IMG/VR virus record: IMGVR_UViG_3300035691_000017
Location: 1-34,679 of that record
Direction: 5' to 3' (one strand)
Source of the DNA: a virus
Length of the DNA: 34,679 nucleotides
The position numbers were made by a program, and so were the translations under genes. Of this stretch, positions 5,231 through 27,618 are shown in pieces. The notes under the pieces are model-generated. The model was not told the DNA's origin, ran no database searches, and saw only the letters and a list, made by a program, of their open reading frames with translations. Within the stretch, counting starts at the first letter, position 1; each line of letters begins with the position of its first letter.

Positions 5231-5248
5231 AGCGCGAACTTTCGCGCT
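5231..5248. promoter_or_regulatory. Palindromic operator candidate, copy 1
   Basis: AGCGCGAACTTTCGCGCT: perfect 8-bp arms AGCGCGAA/TTCGCGCT around CT. It lies between the divergent genes starting at 5206 (minus) and 5330 (plus). Near-identical sites sit at 9246-9263 and 14174-14191, each also in a divergent intergenic region. Confidence 0.7.
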
Positions 5249-8997: not shown

Positions 8998-9210
8998 TCA
9001 CGCCGACCGGGCGTGCGCGCGGGAACGCTCGAGGCGCTCGGCCGCCGCGATTAGCTTTTCACAATTCGGAATGCTCTTGAGCGCCCACCCACGGTCCCGA
9101 AACGAGCGCACCGTCGAGAGCGGCAAGCCGGCCTCCCTGGCGAGCTCGGTCACGCCGACGACCTCGGCGATTTCCGCCACCCGCCTTAGGCCCTCGTCGA
9201 TAGTAGGCAT
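8998..9210 (-). CDS. Small HTH protein (Cro-like candidate)
   Basis: 70 aa from ATG 9210. The HTH reads IAEVVGVTELAREAGLPLST then VRSFRDRGWA, typical of XRE/Cro-type or transposase-like HTHs. It is the first gene of the leftward replication unit, and an imperfect palindrome (9211-9228) abuts its start codon, with a second better copy at 9246-9263. That suggests the protein, or another phage regulator, controls this divergent promoter pair. The Shine-Dalgarno is weak (AAGG 14 nt upstream). Its closest functional parallel is a Cro-like protein, but no binding data can be read from sequence. Confidence 0.7.
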   Translation of the reverse strand: MPTIDEGLRRVAEIAEVVGVTELAREAGLPLSTVRSFRDRGWALKSIPNCEKLIAAAERLERSRAHARSA

Positions 9211-9228
9211 GGCGCGAACATTCGCCTT
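9211..9228. promoter_or_regulatory. Palindromic operator candidate, weaker copy
   Basis: GGCGCGAACATTCGCCTT. The inner arms GCGAA/TTCGC and the CA centre resemble the stronger sites; the outer bases diverge. It abuts the start codon of the leftward HTH gene and overlaps TTGACG (9227-9232), a good -35 candidate for rightward transcription. Its centre is 35 bp from that of the stronger site at 9246-9263. Confidence 0.5.
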
Positions 9229-9245
9229 GACGACGGGTGAATACA

Positions 9246-9263
9246 AGAGCGAACTTTCGCGCT
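9246..9263. promoter_or_regulatory. Palindromic operator candidate, copy 2
   Basis: AGAGCGAACTTTCGCGCT, one base from the copy at 5231 (G-A instead of G-C in the left arm). It lies 24 bp upstream of the rightward recombination operon and 18 bp downstream of the weaker copy. Confidence 0.65.
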
Positions 9264-9287
9264 CGGGTAGAGCGAGAGGTTTCAGCC

Positions 9288-9650
9288 ATGCCGCGCCGGG
9301 GTTCACGTCTCGTCGGTCAGGTCGCCGACCTAATCCGAGCGCACGAAATCAGCCATGCCGAGCGCCTCGAGCTATTCGAGGCGCTAATCGGCGACGCGAA
9401 TAGTGGCAAACTAACACACGTTAGCGACCCGTTACTTGTGCGCGACGCCGCACCAAGCCGCACCACGCCGCACCACGCCGCAAAACGGGTTTGCGCGAAT
9501 TGTGGCGAAACGGTCGAGGCCGAGGTGCTGAACATGCGGTGTTACGTCGGGACCGGCGTCGCGGCGTGCAAAGCCTGTATCGACGCCGCGCTCGTCGCTC
9601 GGTACGGCCCGCGCCGCCGCGCCTCATTCCTCGACGGCGCCTATGCGTGA
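9288..9650 (+). CDS. Zinc-ribbon protein carrying an internal decamer repeat
   Basis: 120 aa from ATG 9288, with an AGAGG Shine-Dalgarno 8 nt upstream. The N-terminal half is helical (VADLIRAHEISHAERLELFE). The C-terminal half has CANCGE and VAACKAC, a four-Cys zinc ribbon around residues 68-100. It is the first gene of the recombination operon. Between the two halves the codons for DAAPSRTTPHHAAK are formed by four tandem 10-bp units (9447-9486), the same unit as in the attP-like region, in the opposite orientation. The low-complexity linker is therefore probably set by the DNA repeat rather than by protein function. Molecular role unknown. Confidence 0.75.
   Translation: MPRRGSRLVGQVADLIRAHEISHAERLELFEALIGDANSGKLTHVSDPLLVRDAAPSRTTPHHAAKRVCANCGETVEAEVLNMRCYVGTGVAACKACIDAALVARYGPRRRASFLDGAYA
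9447..9486. repeat. Four tandem decamers inside a gene (GCCGCACCAC type)
   Basis: Units GCCGCACCAA, GCCGCACCAC, GCCGCACCAC, GCCGCAAAAC at exact 10-bp spacing. Their reverse complements (GTGGTGCGGC and variants) match the decamers at 13869-14110. Confidence 0.8.
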
Positions 9651-9939
9651 GGTCGCGCCCGCGCCGGCTGGTGAACTTGTCACGCTCGACACCGAGCCGG
9701 TCGACCCGCGTTTCGCGCGGATCCCGACTGTGAGGCACGCCCTAACCCTCGTCGTGCCGGGCGCCGGCGGCGGCAAGGTTTCGGTGCGGGAGACGACGAA
9801 CGGCGCGCGCGTCACCGTGACCGACGAAAACGGGTTCGCCCGGTCGCTCGACCTGAACGTCGTCGAGCTTCGCACCCTGGCGCAACACGCGAACCGGATT
9901 GCCCGGCGCGTCGCCTTCCGGCCGGACGACACGCCATGA
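9643..9939 (+). CDS. Hypothetical protein in the recombination operon
   Basis: 98 aa, overlapping the previous gene by 8 nt and the next by 4 nt (ATGA). The middle is strand-rich (HALTLVVPGAGGGKVSVRET, GARVTVTDENGFARSLDLN) and ends in a helix rich in Arg/His (LRTLAQHANRIARRVAF). Not recognised. Its position before the ERF gene suggests an accessory role in recombination, by context only. Confidence 0.65.
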   Translation: MREVAPAPAGELVTLDTEPVDPRFARIPTVRHALTLVVPGAGGGKVSVRETTNGARVTVTDENGFARSLDLNVVELRTLAQHANRIARRVAFRPDDTP

Positions 9940-10586
9940 CCGACGCGCTTCTCGAAATGAGCCAGGATATCGGCGAGCTCGCGAAGGCGTTGCCCGGTGC
10001 GCAAGGCGCCATAGCCAAAATCACGCGCGACGCCGCCAATCCGCACTTTAATTCGCGCTACGCCAGCCTCACCGAGATTGCCGACGCGGTGCTCGCCGCG
10101 ATGAACAACGCCGGGTTTACGGTGCTGCAACCCGCCCGGTTCGCCGGCGCGAACGTCGTCGACGTTGAGACGTGGCTCTTGCACGCCTCGGCGCAATGGC
10201 TTCGCGCGACGCACTCGGTCCCGGTGTCGCGGGTCGACGCGCAAGGCGTCGGCTCGGCGCTCACCTATGCCCGCCGGCAAGCCCTGCAATCGTTTTTCGT
10301 CGTCGCGCCGCAAGGCGAAGATGACGACGGCGAGGGTGCGGTCGGTCGCGGGCCCGGCCGCCCGCCGTTGCCGCCCGAGGAACCGAAACGGCCGAGCCGC
10401 GAGGTTCGGGTCGAGCGGCTCGAGACGACGCTCGGTCAGGTTAAGACGATCCGCGACCTCGACCGCGCATGGGCGCTCGGCGGCGACCTACGCAGCGAAT
10501 GCGCCACCGAGGCGCCCGAGCTCGCCGCGCGGCTGGACGACCTGTATCAGCGCCGCCGCGTCGAAATGGTGGGAGACGCCGGGTAA
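9936..10586 (+). CDS. ERF-family single-strand annealing protein
   Basis: 216 aa. The core ALPGAQGAIAKITRDAANPHFNSRYASLTEI (about residues 17-47) and GVGSALTYARRQALQSFFVVAPQ.EDDDG (about 107-135) are signatures of the ERF superfamily of phage ssDNA-annealing recombinases, functional analogues of Red-beta and RecT. The C-terminal region (from about 140) is a charged linker and helix. It would pair with the YqaJ exonuclease three genes downstream to form a recombination system for concatemer formation or double-strand break repair. A TAATG overlap couples it to the next gene. Confidence 0.93.
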   Translation: MTDALLEMSQDIGELAKALPGAQGAIAKITRDAANPHFNSRYASLTEIADAVLAAMNNAGFTVLQPARFAGANVVDVETWLLHASAQWLRATHSVPVSRVDAQGVGSALTYARRQALQSFFVVAPQGEDDDGEGAVGRGPGRPPLPPEEPKRPSREVRVERLETTLGQVKTIRDLDRAWALGGDLRSECATEAPELAARLDDLYQRRRVEMVGDAG

Positions 10587-10852
10587 TGGACGACCGGCCG
10601 CGTCAGGTTTGCGAGGGATGCGGGAACGTCACCCGACTAGGCCGGCTCTGTGACGTGTGCCTTTCCGGCCCCTGGCCGCGACCGCCGCCCGGCGCGTTTT
10701 TCCGGTGCGAGGCGTGCGACGGCGCCGGCGAACATATCACCTATGACGACCGGGCCGAGCGGTGCGAGGCGTGCGACGGATCCGGCCAGCAATGGCGCGA
10801 CGACGCTAGGCCGCTCGAGCTCGACGACCTCGACGACGAGGCCGCGCCATGA
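10586..10852 (+). CDS. DnaJ-type zinc-finger-like small protein
   Basis: 88 aa from ATG 10586, overlapping the ERF stop as TAATG. It has three CxxC pairs: CEGC and CDVC near residues 9-26, then two CEACDGxG motifs at about 41 and 60, like the CxxCxGxG repeats of DnaJ. The C-terminus is acidic. Small DnaJ-zinc-finger-like proteins are common in phages and may act in protein or nucleic-acid binding. ATGA overlap to the next gene. Confidence 0.75.
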   Translation: MDDRPRQVCEGCGNVTRLGRLCDVCLSGPWPRPPPGAFFRCEACDGAGEHITYDDRAERCEACDGSGQQWRDDARPLELDDLDDEAAP

Positions 10853-11043
10853 TCCGTCATTGCCCGTTCTGTGGCGGCGCCGACGTGATTACGCCGGTGC
10901 GCCGGCCGACCTCGAGCATGTGCGACCGATGCGGCGCCACTGGCCCGGTCGCCGAGCGCCCGAGCGCCGCCCTGGCCGCATGGTCCCGGCGCGTCGAGCC
11001 GCCGCCGGTGACGTATTACGAGCTTGCCGAGGGTGGGGAATGA
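10849..11043 (+). CDS. Lar-family-like zinc-ribbon protein (putative restriction alleviation)
   Basis: 64 aa. HCPFCGGADVI at the start, MCDRCGATGP in the middle, and SAALAAWSRR at the end match the compact Lar family layout (CPFCGG, then C..CG..GP, then A...WNrR). Rac-prophage Lar relieves type I restriction. Many phage members of the family are just four-cysteine zinc ribbons with no tested function, so restriction alleviation is a family-based suggestion. It sits between the DnaJ-like protein and the exonuclease in one coupled operon. Confidence 0.75.
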   Translation: MIRHCPFCGGADVITPVRRPTSSMCDRCGATGPVAERPSAALAAWSRRVEPPPVTYYELAEGGE

Positions 11044-11666
11044 TCGAGCAACGGTCGCCCGAGTGGTATGCGCAACGGCTCGGCAAGGCGACCGCGAGCC
11101 GGATTGCCGATATCGTCGCCAGGACGAAAACCGGGCCGTCCGCGATGCGCGCCAACTACCGCGCCGAGCTCATAGCCGAGCGGCTCACCGGCCAGCCGGC
11201 GCCGAACTACGTCAACGGCCCGATGCAATGGGGAATAGACCACGAGGCCGAGGCGCTCGACGCCTACACGCGGCACACCGGCCTCGCCACCGAGCCCGCC
11301 GAATTCGTCGACCATCCAGAAATCCGCTGGAGTGGCGCCAGCCCCGACGCGCTCGTCGGCGTCGAGGGTCTCGTCGAGGTGAAATGCCCGAACACCGCGA
11401 CGCATATCGACACCCTGCTAGGCGCGAAAATCTCAGGGTCTCACCTGATACAAATGCAATGGCAAATGGCGTGCACTGGCCGGGTTTGGTGCGATTACGT
11501 TTCGTTCGATCCGCGTTTGCCGGATCCGATGCGGGTGCACGTTCGCCGGGTCGAGCGCGACGTGTCGCACGTTCTCGACCTCGAGGCCGAGGTGTCGGCG
11601 TTCCTGGCCGAGATTGCCGAGGCCGTCGAGCGGCTTACCGGCCAGTACGGACGCGAGGCCGCATGA
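11040..11666 (+). CDS. YqaJ-family viral exonuclease
   Basis: 208 aa from ATG 11040 (ATGA overlap). Motifs of the YqaJ/lambda-exonuclease fold: QRSPEWYAQRLGKATAS at the N-terminus, GIDHEAEALDAY (about residue 62), GASPDALVG (Asp about 105) followed by LVEVKCPNTATH (Glu-x-Lys about 116). These are the metal and catalytic residues of PD-(D/E)xK nucleases that resect double-stranded DNA 5' to 3'. Operon partner of the ERF annealing protein, giving a two-component homologous recombination module. Confidence 0.93.
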   Translation: MIEQRSPEWYAQRLGKATASRIADIVARTKTGPSAMRANYRAELIAERLTGQPAPNYVNGPMQWGIDHEAEALDAYTRHTGLATEPAEFVDHPEIRWSGASPDALVGVEGLVEVKCPNTATHIDTLLGAKISGSHLIQMQWQMACTGRVWCDYVSFDPRLPDPMRVHVRRVERDVSHVLDLEAEVSAFLAEIAEAVERLTGQYGREAA

Positions 11667-11669
11667 CGT

Positions 11670-12056
11670 ATGGCGCAGGCGACGATACGGCTCGTAAACG
11701 ACGCGGCGCGGCGCACCGCGCAAAGTTGGGTTTGGGGCGCCGAGGTCGGGACCGGCGTCACGTTCGCCAGCCCGCGCAAGCGAACGCTGGCTCAGAACGC
11801 GGCCATGTGGGCGGCGCTCACCGACATTGCCGAGCAAGTGTCGTGGCACGGTCAACGGCTGGCGCCGGACGACTGGAAATTGCTTTTCCTGGCCGATATG
11901 CAGCGCGGCGCGCGCATGTTGCCGGCGCTCGACGGTCGAGGGTTTGTGAACCTGAACACGTCCTCGAGCGCGCTATCGGTAAGCGAATTCGCCGAGGTGC
12001 TCGACGCGATTTACAAGTTTGCCGCCGCGAACGGCGTTACGTTCCGTGCGGCCTAG
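11670..12056 (+). CDS. ninB: NinB/Orf-family recombination protein
   Basis: 128 aa. SPRKRTLAQNAAMWAALTDIAEQV (residues about 34-57) and APDDWKLLFLA, then FVNLNTSSSALSVSEFAEVLD match the NinB (lambda Orf) family, a recombination mediator that can load on SSB-coated DNA and replace RecFOR. It completes the annealing protein, exonuclease and mediator set of this operon. A GC-rich hairpin follows at 12118-12151. Confidence 0.88.
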   Translation: MAQATIRLVNDAARRTAQSWVWGAEVGTGVTFASPRKRTLAQNAAMWAALTDIAEQVSWHGQRLAPDDWKLLFLADMQRGARMLPALDGRGFVNLNTSSSALSVSEFAEVLDAIYKFAAANGVTFRAA

Positions 12057-12117
12057 CCGTCCCTTGCGGGTTCGCGACCCGCCGGCCCCCGCTAAGCCGG
12101 GCGGCCCGCAAAGGAAA

Positions 12118-12151
12118 GGCGCGACCGGGTTTCACCCCGCCCGGTCGCGCC
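12118..12151 (+). terminator. GC-rich hairpin after ninB
   Basis: Perfect 12-bp stem GGCGCGACCGGG (12118-12129) / CCCGGTCGCGCC (12140-12151), loop of 10. It is followed by GCCCTTCTG rather than a T run, so it is a weak terminator or an RNA-stabilising end. It separates the recombination operon from the excisionase-like gene. Confidence 0.5.
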
Positions 12152-12174
12152 GCCCTTCTGTAAAGGCTCTTGCC

Positions 12175-12396
12175 ATGCCAGCCGCCACAACCCTGCTACC
12201 GCCCGAAAAACCGCTCTACACGATACGGGAGGCGCACGAGACGCTCGGGATTTCCGAGCGCAAGTTGCTTTACCTCTTTCGCGCCGGCGAGTTGCGCCGG
12301 GTGAAACTCGGCCGCCTTACGCTCGTGCGCCGCGACGACCTCGAGGCGCTTATCGCTAAGCTGCCCGACGCGCCTCGCCGGCCGGGAAAGCGGTGA
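12175..12396 (+). CDS. Excisionase-like HTH protein (MerR-type winged helix)
   Basis: 73 aa from ATG 12175. PLYTIREAHETLGISERKLL, LFRAGELRRVKLGRLTLVRRDDLEALI is the compact HTH_17/MerR-type winged helix of phage excisionases and related regulators. It is convergent with the integrase and overlaps it by 41 bp at the 3' ends, an arrangement fitting an int/xis pair read from opposite strands. The family also includes general regulators, so excisionase is inferred from context. Confidence 0.8.
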   Translation: MPAATTLLPPEKPLYTIREAHETLGISERKLLYLFRAGELRRVKLGRLTLVRRDDLEALIAKLPDAPRRPGKR

Positions 12397-13810
12397 CGTT
12401 TGACACCGGCTCAGGCTTGGCCGGCGGCGTGACCCGCGAGCCCGGCCAGCGCGGCGGCGCGTTCGGGTTCAGGTAGGCGCTCCATTCGCGCATGACGAGC
12501 TTGCGCTCGGGCAAGAATACGTCGCCGAACTGGCCGTTGCGCGCGTAGCGCCCGAGCGCCTGAGACAGCCGCGCCTCGTTTTCCTCGGCGGCGGTTTTCG
12601 CGCCGATCATGTGGCCGATTGCCCGGTCCATAACCGCGAGCGGGAAGGGAGGCCGGGCCCGGTGCGGAATGGACTTGCCCCACGCGACAAACGACGACCG
12701 AAAGCCATGCGTGCAAATGTCGGGGTTGAGCGCCTTGACCACATACCAAAGCGCCTGATTGCTCAGTTGCCGCCGGACGATCCCGGCCTCCCGCGCGCCA
12801 GCCCGCGACCGGGCGCGGCCATACGAGGGAAAGATGAAATCGTTCGGGCCGAGGTCGAGACCCTCGCGGTGTTTGCGCACGCGCTGCAATAGCCGGCACA
12901 TCGCATAGGAGAGCGGCACCACGAACGGGGCGCCGTCCTCGCCCTTGCGGCGCTCTGATTTCAGCCGGGAGGCCGGTATCGTCCACGTCCGTTTGCCGGT
13001 GAGGTCGAGCTCGCACCACCGCGCGCCGGTCGCCTCTTTCGCCCGGCACCCGGTCAAGATCACCCATTCGAGGCACCGCGCCGGCATTCCCTCGAGCTCG
13101 CGCAAGCCAGCCACGAACGCCGGCACGAGCTCGAACGGCAAGGCCGGGCGCGGTTTGTGGAAATGCTCGCCCTCGCCGAGAATGAAACACATCGCCTCGA
13201 AATCGGCCGGGTTTTGCCAGTACGGCGCATTGCGACGCTGCGTCGTGTGCCGGTGCTTCAACACCTTCGCCAGTTGGTCGGCGATCCGGCGCGCGGTCGG
13301 GCGCGGGATACCGTTTTTCCAATACTTGCCGAGCACCGCCTCGACGTGCTCGGCGCGTATGGCGTCGATTTTCATGCGCGCGAGGGTGCCGGTGTACTTG
13401 GTCAAATCGCACATCCACCGCGACCGCTCGACGCCGTAATCGACCTTGTCGGCGAACGGCGCGAGGCGCTCGTAATTGGCGCGGCAATACTCGGCCAGGG
13501 TCGGGTTAGCGGTCGCGCCGGTGTCACGCGCGGCGCGCGGGTCGACGCCGTCCTCGAGCAGTAGGTTATTCGCCTCGCACCAATCCAAGGCGCTTGTGAT
13601 CGTCACATCGTCCGGGTAGCACCCGTCGAGCCACATCGTCGGGTATCCCCCGGCCCACGGAAACCGATGCACGAACCTCGCTTTGCCGCTGTCGAGCACC
13701 ACGCAAGAGAGCCCCTTGCGAATGGGGAACGTCGCCTCGGATCCGGCCGCAAGCGCGCGGTCAACGGCCTTTTTCAATTCAAAATCGTTCCGGTAAAATT
13801 TCTTCGCCAC
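12356..13810 (-). CDS. int: Tyrosine-type integrase (P4-like)
   Basis: 484 aa, start GTG 13810 with an AAGG 8 nt upstream. The N-terminal arm-binding domain (residues 1-100, GLSCVVLDSGKARFVHRF) is of the P4/DUF4102 type. A core-binding domain follows (about 105-200), then the catalytic domain: Arg in TGCRAKEATGARW (about 252), CTHGFRSSFVAW (His/Arg about 365) and AIGHMIG (about 390). The likely nucleophile is Tyr in LGRYARN (about 415). Such enzymes integrate phage DNA, usually into tRNA genes. The repeat-rich gap upstream (13811-14213) is a good candidate for its attP. It overlaps the excisionase-like gene by 41 bp. Confidence 0.94.
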   Translation of the reverse strand: MAKKFYRNDFELKKAVDRALAAGSEATFPIRKGLSCVVLDSGKARFVHRFPWAGGYPTMWLDGCYPDDVTITSALDWCEANNLLLEDGVDPRAARDTGATANPTLAEYCRANYERLAPFADKVDYGVERSRWMCDLTKYTGTLARMKIDAIRAEHVEAVLGKYWKNGIPRPTARRIADQLAKVLKHRHTTQRRNAPYWQNPADFEAMCFILGEGEHFHKPRPALPFELVPAFVAGLRELEGMPARCLEWVILTGCRAKEATGARWCELDLTGKRTWTIPASRLKSERRKGEDGAPFVVPLSYAMCRLLQRVRKHREGLDLGPNDFIFPSYGRARSRAGAREAGIVRRQLSNQALWYVVKALNPDICTHGFRSSFVAWGKSIPHRARPPFPLAVMDRAIGHMIGAKTAAEENEARLSQALGRYARNGQFGDVFLPERKLVMREWSAYLNPNAPPRWPGSRVTPPAKPEPVSNVTAFPAGEARRAA

Positions 13811-13823
13811 GTCCTCGGCCTTT

Positions 13824-13849
13824 CACTCACAATTTTGCACTCACAAACG
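13824..13849. repeat. Paired CACTCACA repeat, left copy
   Basis: Two CACTCACA units separated by six bases (ATTTTG), the second followed by AACG. The right copy lies 213 bp away at 14037-14061 in the same orientation, with a 5-base spacer (TTTTT) and the same AACG end. Possible integrase arm or core-flanking sites. Confidence 0.6.
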
Positions 13850-13868
13850 AGCGCATTGCATGTGCGCC

Positions 13869-14110
13869 TTGGTGCGGTGTCGTGCGGCTCGCCGTCAACC
13901 CGGCCCTTGAAAACGCAACGGTTTTTGCGGCTTGGTGCGGCTTGGTGCGCAAACACCATTTGGTGAAAACCAAAGAAAACGAGATACTCGTTATCTGATT
14001 GTTTTCGTTCGGGAATTATGCGGCCGGAAACCCCATCACTCACATTTTTCACTCACAAACGGTTTGCGGCGCGGTGCGGCGCGGTGCGGTTTCGTGCGGT
14101 TTGGTGCGGC
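13869..14110. repeat. Ten decamers with core GGTGCGG in three clusters
   Basis: Cluster 1: TTGGTGCGGT, GTCGTGCGGC (13869-13888). Cluster 2: TTTTTGCGGC, TTGGTGCGGC, TTGGTGCGCA (13922-13951). Cluster 3: GGTTTGCGGC, GCGGTGCGGC, GCGGTGCGGT, TTCGTGCGGT, TTGGTGCGGC (14061-14110). Units are contiguous at 10 bp, about one helical turn, so a bound protein would face one side of the DNA. Confidence 0.8.
14037..14061. repeat. Paired CACTCACA repeat, right copy
   Basis: Two CACTCACA units separated by TTTTT; the second runs through AACG into the first decamer of cluster 3. Matches the left copy at 13824-13849. Confidence 0.6.
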
Positions 14111-14173
14111 AACCCGCCGCACCTGAGGGACCGGCCAGCGCCCGCAAAACAGCACTTGCAGCCCGCCAGCGAC

Positions 14174-14191
14174 GGCGCGAACTTTCGCGCG
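14174..14191. promoter_or_regulatory. Palindromic operator candidate, copy 3
   Basis: GGCGCGAACTTTCGCGCG, perfect 7-bp arms GCGCGAA/TTCGCGC around CT. It lies 22 bp upstream of the ATG at 14214, and TTGCAG (14156-14161) could serve as a -35 so that the site would cover the -10 of a rightward promoter. Confidence 0.65.
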
Positions 14192-27086: not shown

Positions 27087-27266
27087 CTAGCCCTTTCGGT
27101 CGGGTCGCGGCGGCGGCTCGAGCTCGAGCGCGTCGCCAGCCGCGACGAGCGCCGCGCCCCATGCGCGTTTCACGGTGAGCTCGAGGCCGGCGGTGTAGTG
27201 CACGCTAACCCGGCCTCGGTATTCGGGCGGCGCGAAACGGCGGTCGCGTAGGATCCGCACGCGCAC
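27087..27266 (-). CDS. Small connector-region protein (GTG start)
   Basis: 59 aa read from GTG 27266: MRVRILRDRRFAPPEYRGRV, then SVHYTAGLELTVKRAWGAAL, an acidic stretch and PPPRPDRKG. It fills the gap between the head-tail adaptor gene (stop 27271) and the head closure gene (start 27083), with four bases on one side and three on the other. I recall similar small proteins, with a basic N-terminal strand and Y.AG.E..V.R..A, in this slot of siphophage connector modules. No function is established. A GTG two codons on (27260) is an alternative start. Confidence 0.7.
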   Translation of the reverse strand: MRVRILRDRRFAPPEYRGRVSVHYTAGLELTVKRAWGAALVAAGDALELEPPPRPDRKG

Positions 27267-27270
27267 CGGC

Positions 27271-27618
27271 TTAGGCGAGCGCCGGGTCGCGGTAGCGATG
27301 CAGAATGGCGGTGATCGCCGGCGACAAGAGCTCGTCGGCTGGCGAGCGCCCGTCGTAAAGCGCGGTGAGCACGATCAAGATTGCCGCCTTGACGAGCGTC
27401 GGCGTGTTCGCGTCGGTCCAGGGTGCGGCCAGCACCGGCGGGTATATGCGCGGGTCGACCCTCGGGCCGTCGTCGAATGGCAATTTCAGATAGTCGACGA
27501 CAATCGCCGAGGCTTGGTCCGCCTTAAACATGAGGTCGGCGAGCGCCTCGGCCGAGAGCCCGGCCGCCGACACCCGCAATTGCTGGAGCGCCTCGGCCTG
27601 AGTGACAAGCGCGACCAT
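27271..27618 (-). CDS. Head-tail adaptor (HK97 gp6-like)
   Basis: 115 aa, helical: LVTQAEALQQLRVSAAGLSA, DLMFKADQASAIVVDYLKL, TPTLVKAAILIVLTALYDG, SPAITAILHRYRDPALA. The pattern of alternating helices with A..AI..YL and LV..A.L.L...LYDGR fits phage gp6-like connector proteins that add a ring to the portal. The stop of the preceding gene overlaps its ATG by one base. Confidence 0.85.
   Translation of the reverse strand: MVALVTQAEALQQLRVSAAGLSAEALADLMFKADQASAIVVDYLKLPFDDGPRVDPRIYPPVLAAPWTDANTPTLVKAAILIVLTALYDGRSPADELLSPAITAILHRYRDPALA

Follow-up and report, generated by a model that had tools for sequence, protein, structure and literature searches.

What reads a family of tandem 10-bp repeats that occurs both upstream of a phage integrase gene and, at a distant locus, within the coding sequence of an early gene? 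The question was raised by a 34.7-kb virus record (IMG/VR IMGVR_UViG_3300035691_000017; all 34,679 nucleotides were analysed and are called the window here), which, judged by its terminase, capsid, portal and integrase genes, its ERF/YqaJ/NinB operon and an excisionase-like gene, is a temperate tailed phage. Two gene groups diverge from about positions 9210 to 9288: a leftward group encoding a small HTH-like protein (8998-9210), a Holliday-junction resolvase and a primase-helicase, and a rightward operon encoding g1, g2, ERF, small genes, YqaJ, NinB and the excisionase-like protein. With a probability of about 0.7, we propose that the decamers are operator arrays of the phage excisionase encoded at 12175-12396, which would use them at attP and in the early leader for excision and for feedback on the operon.

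Tandem decamers are confined to two loci

On the int strand the decamer unit reads GCCGCACCAA, and the same reading is found on the coding strand of g1. The early-leader array (9447-9486) lies on the + strand and the att blocks upstream of int on the opposite strand (Table 1), which confirms the inverted orientation given in a preliminary description of this DNA. That description had counted 2, 3 and 5 units upstream of int and 4 within g1; all of these are present, but the first block has 3 units rather than 2, the third of them (GGCGCACATG) being degenerate. All three long arrays have a GCCGCAAA unit as their last. At the outer end of block 3 the window also contains an inverted repeat, GGTGCGG-CAACCCG-CCGCACC (14103-14123).

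A matrix was trained on the int-upstream units only, and the whole window was scanned with a score for three tandem units. Outside the training arrays the best place was 9447, with 38.6 bits, whereas the next non-array site reached 12.1 bits and dinucleotide shuffling of the remaining window sequence (200 trials) never gave more than 21.7 bits. The scan found no further tandem decamer place in the window, in line with the earlier claim that tandem units are restricted to these loci. Single copies of GGTGCGG were commoner than shuffles predicted (41 versus 12), but they were scattered and, as had been stated, not tandem. When g1 was recoded synonymously with neighbouring codon usage, 0 of 5000 trials reached 38.6 bits; the best recoding came close (37.2 bits), which makes this control, taken by itself, less telling than the comparison between phages.

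Arrays of the form GTGCGG-N4 were not enriched in IMG/VR (87 stretches versus 95 for a reversed control pattern), and such arrays in other viruses are therefore mostly unrelated. Three GTGCGG-N4 loci (L008, L022 and L041) lie near integrases or YqaJ genes in phages that are not close relatives. Arrays of GGCNN pentamers (GGCAAGGCTTGGC...) occur in many phage contigs, for example at the reversed-control loci L100, L161 and L171, and form a separate repeat family.

Table 1. Decamer arrays and neighbouring features in the window
Feature	Positions	Strand	Remarks
Early-leader array	9447..9486	+	4 tandem decamers GCCGCACCAA/GCCGCACCAC/GCCGCACCAC/GCCGCAAAAC; within g1, codes linker preceding zinc ribbon
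att array block 1	13859..13888	-	3 units, third degenerate; int-proximal
att array block 2	13922..13951	-	3 units; sequence almost identical to early-leader array
att array block 3	14061..14110	-	5 units; beyond distal arm pair
Tyrosine integrase (int)	12356..13810	-	PF00589; PF13356 (arm-binding domain) weak, below cut-off; PHROG 1
int-proximal TGTGAGTG pair, probable integrase arm-type sites	13824..13845	-	14 bp apart
Distal TGTGAGTG pair, probable integrase arm-type sites	14037..14057	-	13 bp apart
Gap between block 2 and distal arm pair	13952..14036	.	Presumed attP core location, inferred from layout
g1, first gene of rightward early operon	9288..9650	+	C-terminal zinc-ribbon-like CxxC...CxxC; array in linker
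Recombination genes, same rightward operon	9936..12056	+	ERF-like annealing protein, YqaJ exonuclease, NinB
Putative small HTH regulator	8998..9210	-	Divergent from g1; 48-69% identity in clade; no family match
Two palindromes round TTGAC box	9212..9262	.	GCGAATGTTCGCGC-like 9212-9225, GCGAACTTTCGCGC 9249-9262; candidate regulator operators and early promoter
Excisionase/RDF-like winged-helix protein, 73 aa, proposed array reader	12175..12396	+	Last gene of rightward early operon; Pfam HTH_17 2.7e-10

Leader arrays recur across related phages with changed units

Relatives were identified by an integrase-alignment scan (L282) and by YqaJ-pair and primase-helicase scans (L362 to L368 and L380), L367 and L282 being one contig. 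All relatives in the clade are metagenomic contigs, several of them fragmentary. In L282 the gene order of the window is conserved, the integrase is 50% identical and the excisionase-like protein is 52% identical over 60 residues. Its unit, GGCGTCCAG, is present as 3 and 2 units upstream of int and as 4 units inside the g1 homologue, where the leader array stands directly before the first zinc-ribbon cysteine, as in the window.

A 10-bp leader array was present in eight of the nine phages (window included; 7 of the 8 relatives), usually with a different unit: TGTCCCTTCC in L362, GTCCCA in L363, GTGTCCA in L364, GCGTCCAT in L366, GGCGTCCAG in L367, GTGTGTCTC in L368 and GTCGCATGCT in L380, those of L363, L364, L368 and L380 being on the other strand. 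The array is positioned +214 to +255 from the start of the divergent gene, with L368 (+119) as the exception. Lag 10 was the sole peak among lags 6 to 15 (sum 157 versus 95 to 111), and 0 of 500 shuffles were as good as the leader array in seven phages and 5 of 500 in L364. L364 keeps its leader array beside an integrase only 26% identical to that of the window, and its att pair shares a GTCCA core. No integrase was detectable in the L380 and L377 records. In L365 no leader array was found, though an att pair is present. This contig (9922-10200, 11772-12348, 13535-13810) has two excisionase-like genes with G+C-rich 10-bp arrays between them.

Linker peptides translated from the arrays show no relationship from one phage to the next, while the zinc-ribbon cysteines persist, and L368 has the leader array with no g1 gene at all. 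Because the peptides are unrelated, 10 bp is no multiple of the codon length and the L368 array exists without g1, selection acts on the DNA; the array is independent of the encoded protein (L368) and of the integrase type (L364). The preliminary description had taken a kept protein linker with lost DNA units as the pattern that would speak against it, and we found the opposite, a 10-bp array kept at the same place with an unrelated linker peptide. A direct search in viruses returned no relatives of g1.

Several products are well conserved in the clade, namely the primase-helicase (53-72% identity), the HTH regulator (Table 1), the resolvase, ERF, YqaJ and NinB. The candidate palindromes of the regulator have for the most part been retained as well. 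By comparison, the excisionase-like protein has diverged further (33-52% by tblastn), as would be expected for the reader of diverging sites. Its recognition-helix segment in the window, SERKLLY, differs from the RS-[TSL] type seen elsewhere in the clade, and the window's units alone, L380 aside, are without a GTC[CT] core. That the recognition helix and the unit depart in parallel is suggestive only, and L362, whose segment SDRTVK also differs, contradicts a simple rule.

Leader and att units tend to match within phages

Six phages have arrays at both loci, and the leader matrix of every one was matched against the att regions of all six. Leader and att units matched better within a phage than across phages, a result that 3 of 720 permutations equalled with tandem pairs and 4 of 720 with triples, although these figures are optimistic to an unquantified extent because the leader units had been picked out visually ahead of the scoring, and both loci had already been viewed when the six phages were chosen. 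The diagonal was the clear maximum for the window, L363, L367 and L368; L366 was an exception, in that its leader units fit the L364 att region better than its own. Across phages the units of the two loci change jointly. The earlier proposal that one protein oligomerises on one face of the DNA at both loci is well supported.

L362 carries a leader array whose unit is absent from its att region, so the two loci are not always read by one protein. The integrase of L362 is of the L364 type, another type than that of the window (26% identical). Two excisionase-like genes were seen in L362, at 11151-11339 and about 11330-11600, the second of which resembles the L364 protein and lies beside the L364-type integrase. 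This arrangement suggests a swapped integration module next to a retained older excisionase-like gene.

Layout of the region upstream of int

The TGTGAGTG motif (plus strand CACTCACA) has only 4 copies in the window, where 0.22 are expected, and these form two pairs that both lie upstream of int. Upstream of int at 78 related integrase loci, repeats are enriched relative to control segments: exact 12-bp repeats number 48 versus 11.3, and 10-bp repeats 19 versus 3.75. Visual reading of three of these loci (L207, L275 and L277) gave the order tRNA, 10-bp repeats, 12-bp repeats and int; the int-proximal half of the window region has the decamers and a TGTGAGTG pair in the same order, and the int-proximal TGTGAGTG position matches that of the 12-bp repeats upstream of related integrases. 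By eye, this 12-bp class resembles the arm consensus of IntS of ICEMlSymR7A, TGKTGGTATC (PMC11963761). Taken on this sequence evidence, TGTGAGTG probably marks the integrase arm sites, and the decamers are probably sites of another protein.

Two TGTGAGTG pairs with a putative core between them would constitute a lambda-type attP layout; the attP core and the host attB were not found. Direct search with the arm-site DNA pattern gave no match in viruses. A single-protein search of bacterial genomes gave no relatives of the integrase, and an alignment-based search returned only integrases of about 25-31% identity. The 3' end of int lies inside the excisionase-like gene, the two genes overlapping convergently.

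The excisionase-like protein as candidate reader

The protein encoded at 12175-12396 falls into PHROG 66 (excisionase and transcriptional regulator). Pukovnik Xis (PDB 4J2N) was the sole PDB sequence match of its family (4.2e-05) and also the top match of its predicted fold (mean pLDDT 76), followed by BldC and RdfS. Like an RDF, it is small, has a winged helix and is encoded close to a tyrosine integrase gene, with tandem direct repeats one helical turn apart, putative binding sites, at att; like Apl and Cox, it has similar repeats at an early control region (9447-9486, with matching units in relatives). Against this assignment, no association of nearby HTH_17 genes with 10-bp arrays was found among 131 distant integrase loci (26 and 40 loci, both in 8, about as expected). 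From the repeats shared by the two loci we infer that a single DNA-binding protein, most likely the excisionase, probably ties excision to early-gene control. Sites of an integrase accessory protein, an option that the preliminary description had named, are well supported.

Excisionases bind cooperatively to tandem repeats one turn apart and bend the DNA (PMC7498355). In the window, excisionase monomers would line up head to tail along the attP blocks adjoining the integrase arm sites, with one monomer to each helical turn, and by analogy the bound protein would bend attP DNA and steer integrase towards excision. A second target of the excisionase would be the array of four units that follows the early operator at a distance of about 185 bp, in the first gene of the excisionase's own operon; bound there, the protein would most likely repress the operon, by an elongation block or by spreading towards the promoter, limiting excisionase and recombination functions once excision has been served. 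As the protein is encoded last in an operon whose first gene carries the sites, negative feedback is the simplest and most likely reading of the leader array. Whether excisionase filament arrays in free-to-vary linker codons of the first early gene act clade-wide as a feedback brake, co-varying with the att arrays, is a broader proposition to which we would give even odds.

Alternative explanations

The leader array might instead be a decoy or threshold device, soaking up excisionase without an effect on transcription or looping to att. Its location within a gene, away from the promoter, and the cooperative binding of RDFs (PMC7498355) would suit this reading, but where RDF sites outside att have been described, the protein acts on promoters, and we consider the decoy reading unlikely. 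We think it quite unlikely that the decamers are themselves arm-type sites of the integrase and the leader array a distant integrase operator. The decamers do stand upstream of int, and repression of nearby promoters is known for integrases too, as for IntS (PMC11963761); however, the arm role is already fitted by the separate TGTGAGTG pairs unique to the region, 12-bp repeats are the commoner class next to related integrases, L364 retains its leader array despite its divergent integrase, and phages with integrases 38-50% identical carry very different decamers. A chance or protein-level repeat, for which the high G+C content of the window and its many GGTGCGG singles might be cited, can practically be dismissed in view of the 10-bp period, the unrelated linkers, the synonymous recodings and the L368 array.

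Origin iterons were a further option of the preliminary description, and the primase-helicase or some other replication protein might be their reader. The leader adjoins the replication operon, a winged-helix-like match was found at the C-terminus of the primase-helicase, and iterons inside a gene are known from lambda O. Yet identity of the primase-helicase reaches 65-72% among five phages and its C-terminal helix region is similar, while the units differ and so do not follow it as they would an initiator, and the leader units recur upstream of int; the iteron option is unsupported and very improbable. The partition site also named there found no support, no partition function being identified among those window genes examined. 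It would be similarly surprising if the small HTH regulator divergent from g1 (8998-9210) read the decamers. The leader does lie next to its gene, but a conserved regulator is a better match for the GCGAANNTTCGC-like palindromes that flank the divergent promoter and recur in most of the clade than for the decamers, which vary.

A similar layout of palindromes and promoter is found at the early promoter of most relatives, and the GCGAACTTTCGCGC palindromes are likely operators of the HTH regulator. Perfect copies stand at 5234-5247, 9249-9262 and 14177-14190 and a two-mismatch copy at 9212-9225, all presumed control regions. We had considered this 14-bp palindrome (near 5234, 9249 and 14177) as part of the decamer system, but it fits a separate regulator operator better.

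Relation to known systems

The direct repeats bound by Apl of phage 186 are spaced 10-11 bp apart and lie at attP and between the early promoters, both of which Apl represses (PMC7498355). The window resembles this system in its helical-turn direct repeats at attP and at an early control region and in an RDF with a regulatory role, here a proposed one. It differs in that the Apl gene is first in the early operon, with sites between face-to-face promoters, whereas here the gene is last and the array lies inside g1, about 185 bp beyond the early operator and in coding sequence; the protein, moreover, is of the HTH_17, Pukovnik-Xis-like kind. Cox of P2-like phages is likewise an RDF active at att and at the early switch, but its sites are at the lytic/lysogenic promoters, and no array inside a downstream gene is described (PMC7498355). 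RdfS of ICEMlSymR7A, a wHTH excisionase, binds attP and its own promoter, which it represses, next to an integrase with separate arm motifs; in contrast to the window, it is without a consensus motif, its promoter site overlaps the -35/-10 region, and no tandem decamer array is described (PMC11963761). By sequence and fold, Pukovnik Xis (4J2N) is the closest solved structure to the candidate. Excisionase operators at att and in the early region are therefore already known, and placement inside the first early gene would be a variant, of which we found no description among the open-literature titles and abstracts surveyed.

The leader array is probably regulatory DNA hidden in coding sequence, and its meaning emerges only when two distant loci are compared across phages. 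If the excisionase is the reader, the decision to excise would be tied directly to the early recombination genes, and the L282 protein should favour GGCGTCCAG arrays and the window protein GCCGCACC arrays. Related phages with differing but mostly internally matching units would then make the recognition rules of small excisionases testable and, with leader and att arrays changing together, would offer a natural data set on the evolution of RDF specificity.

A window-like layout was also seen in Caulobacter phage DMCA (L201), in which a scan of 50 kb found no second tandem array: upstream of int (27240-27460) this phage carries CTTAGGAC at 12 bp, in 2 and 3 copies, and two pairs of GTCGCA at 10 bp.
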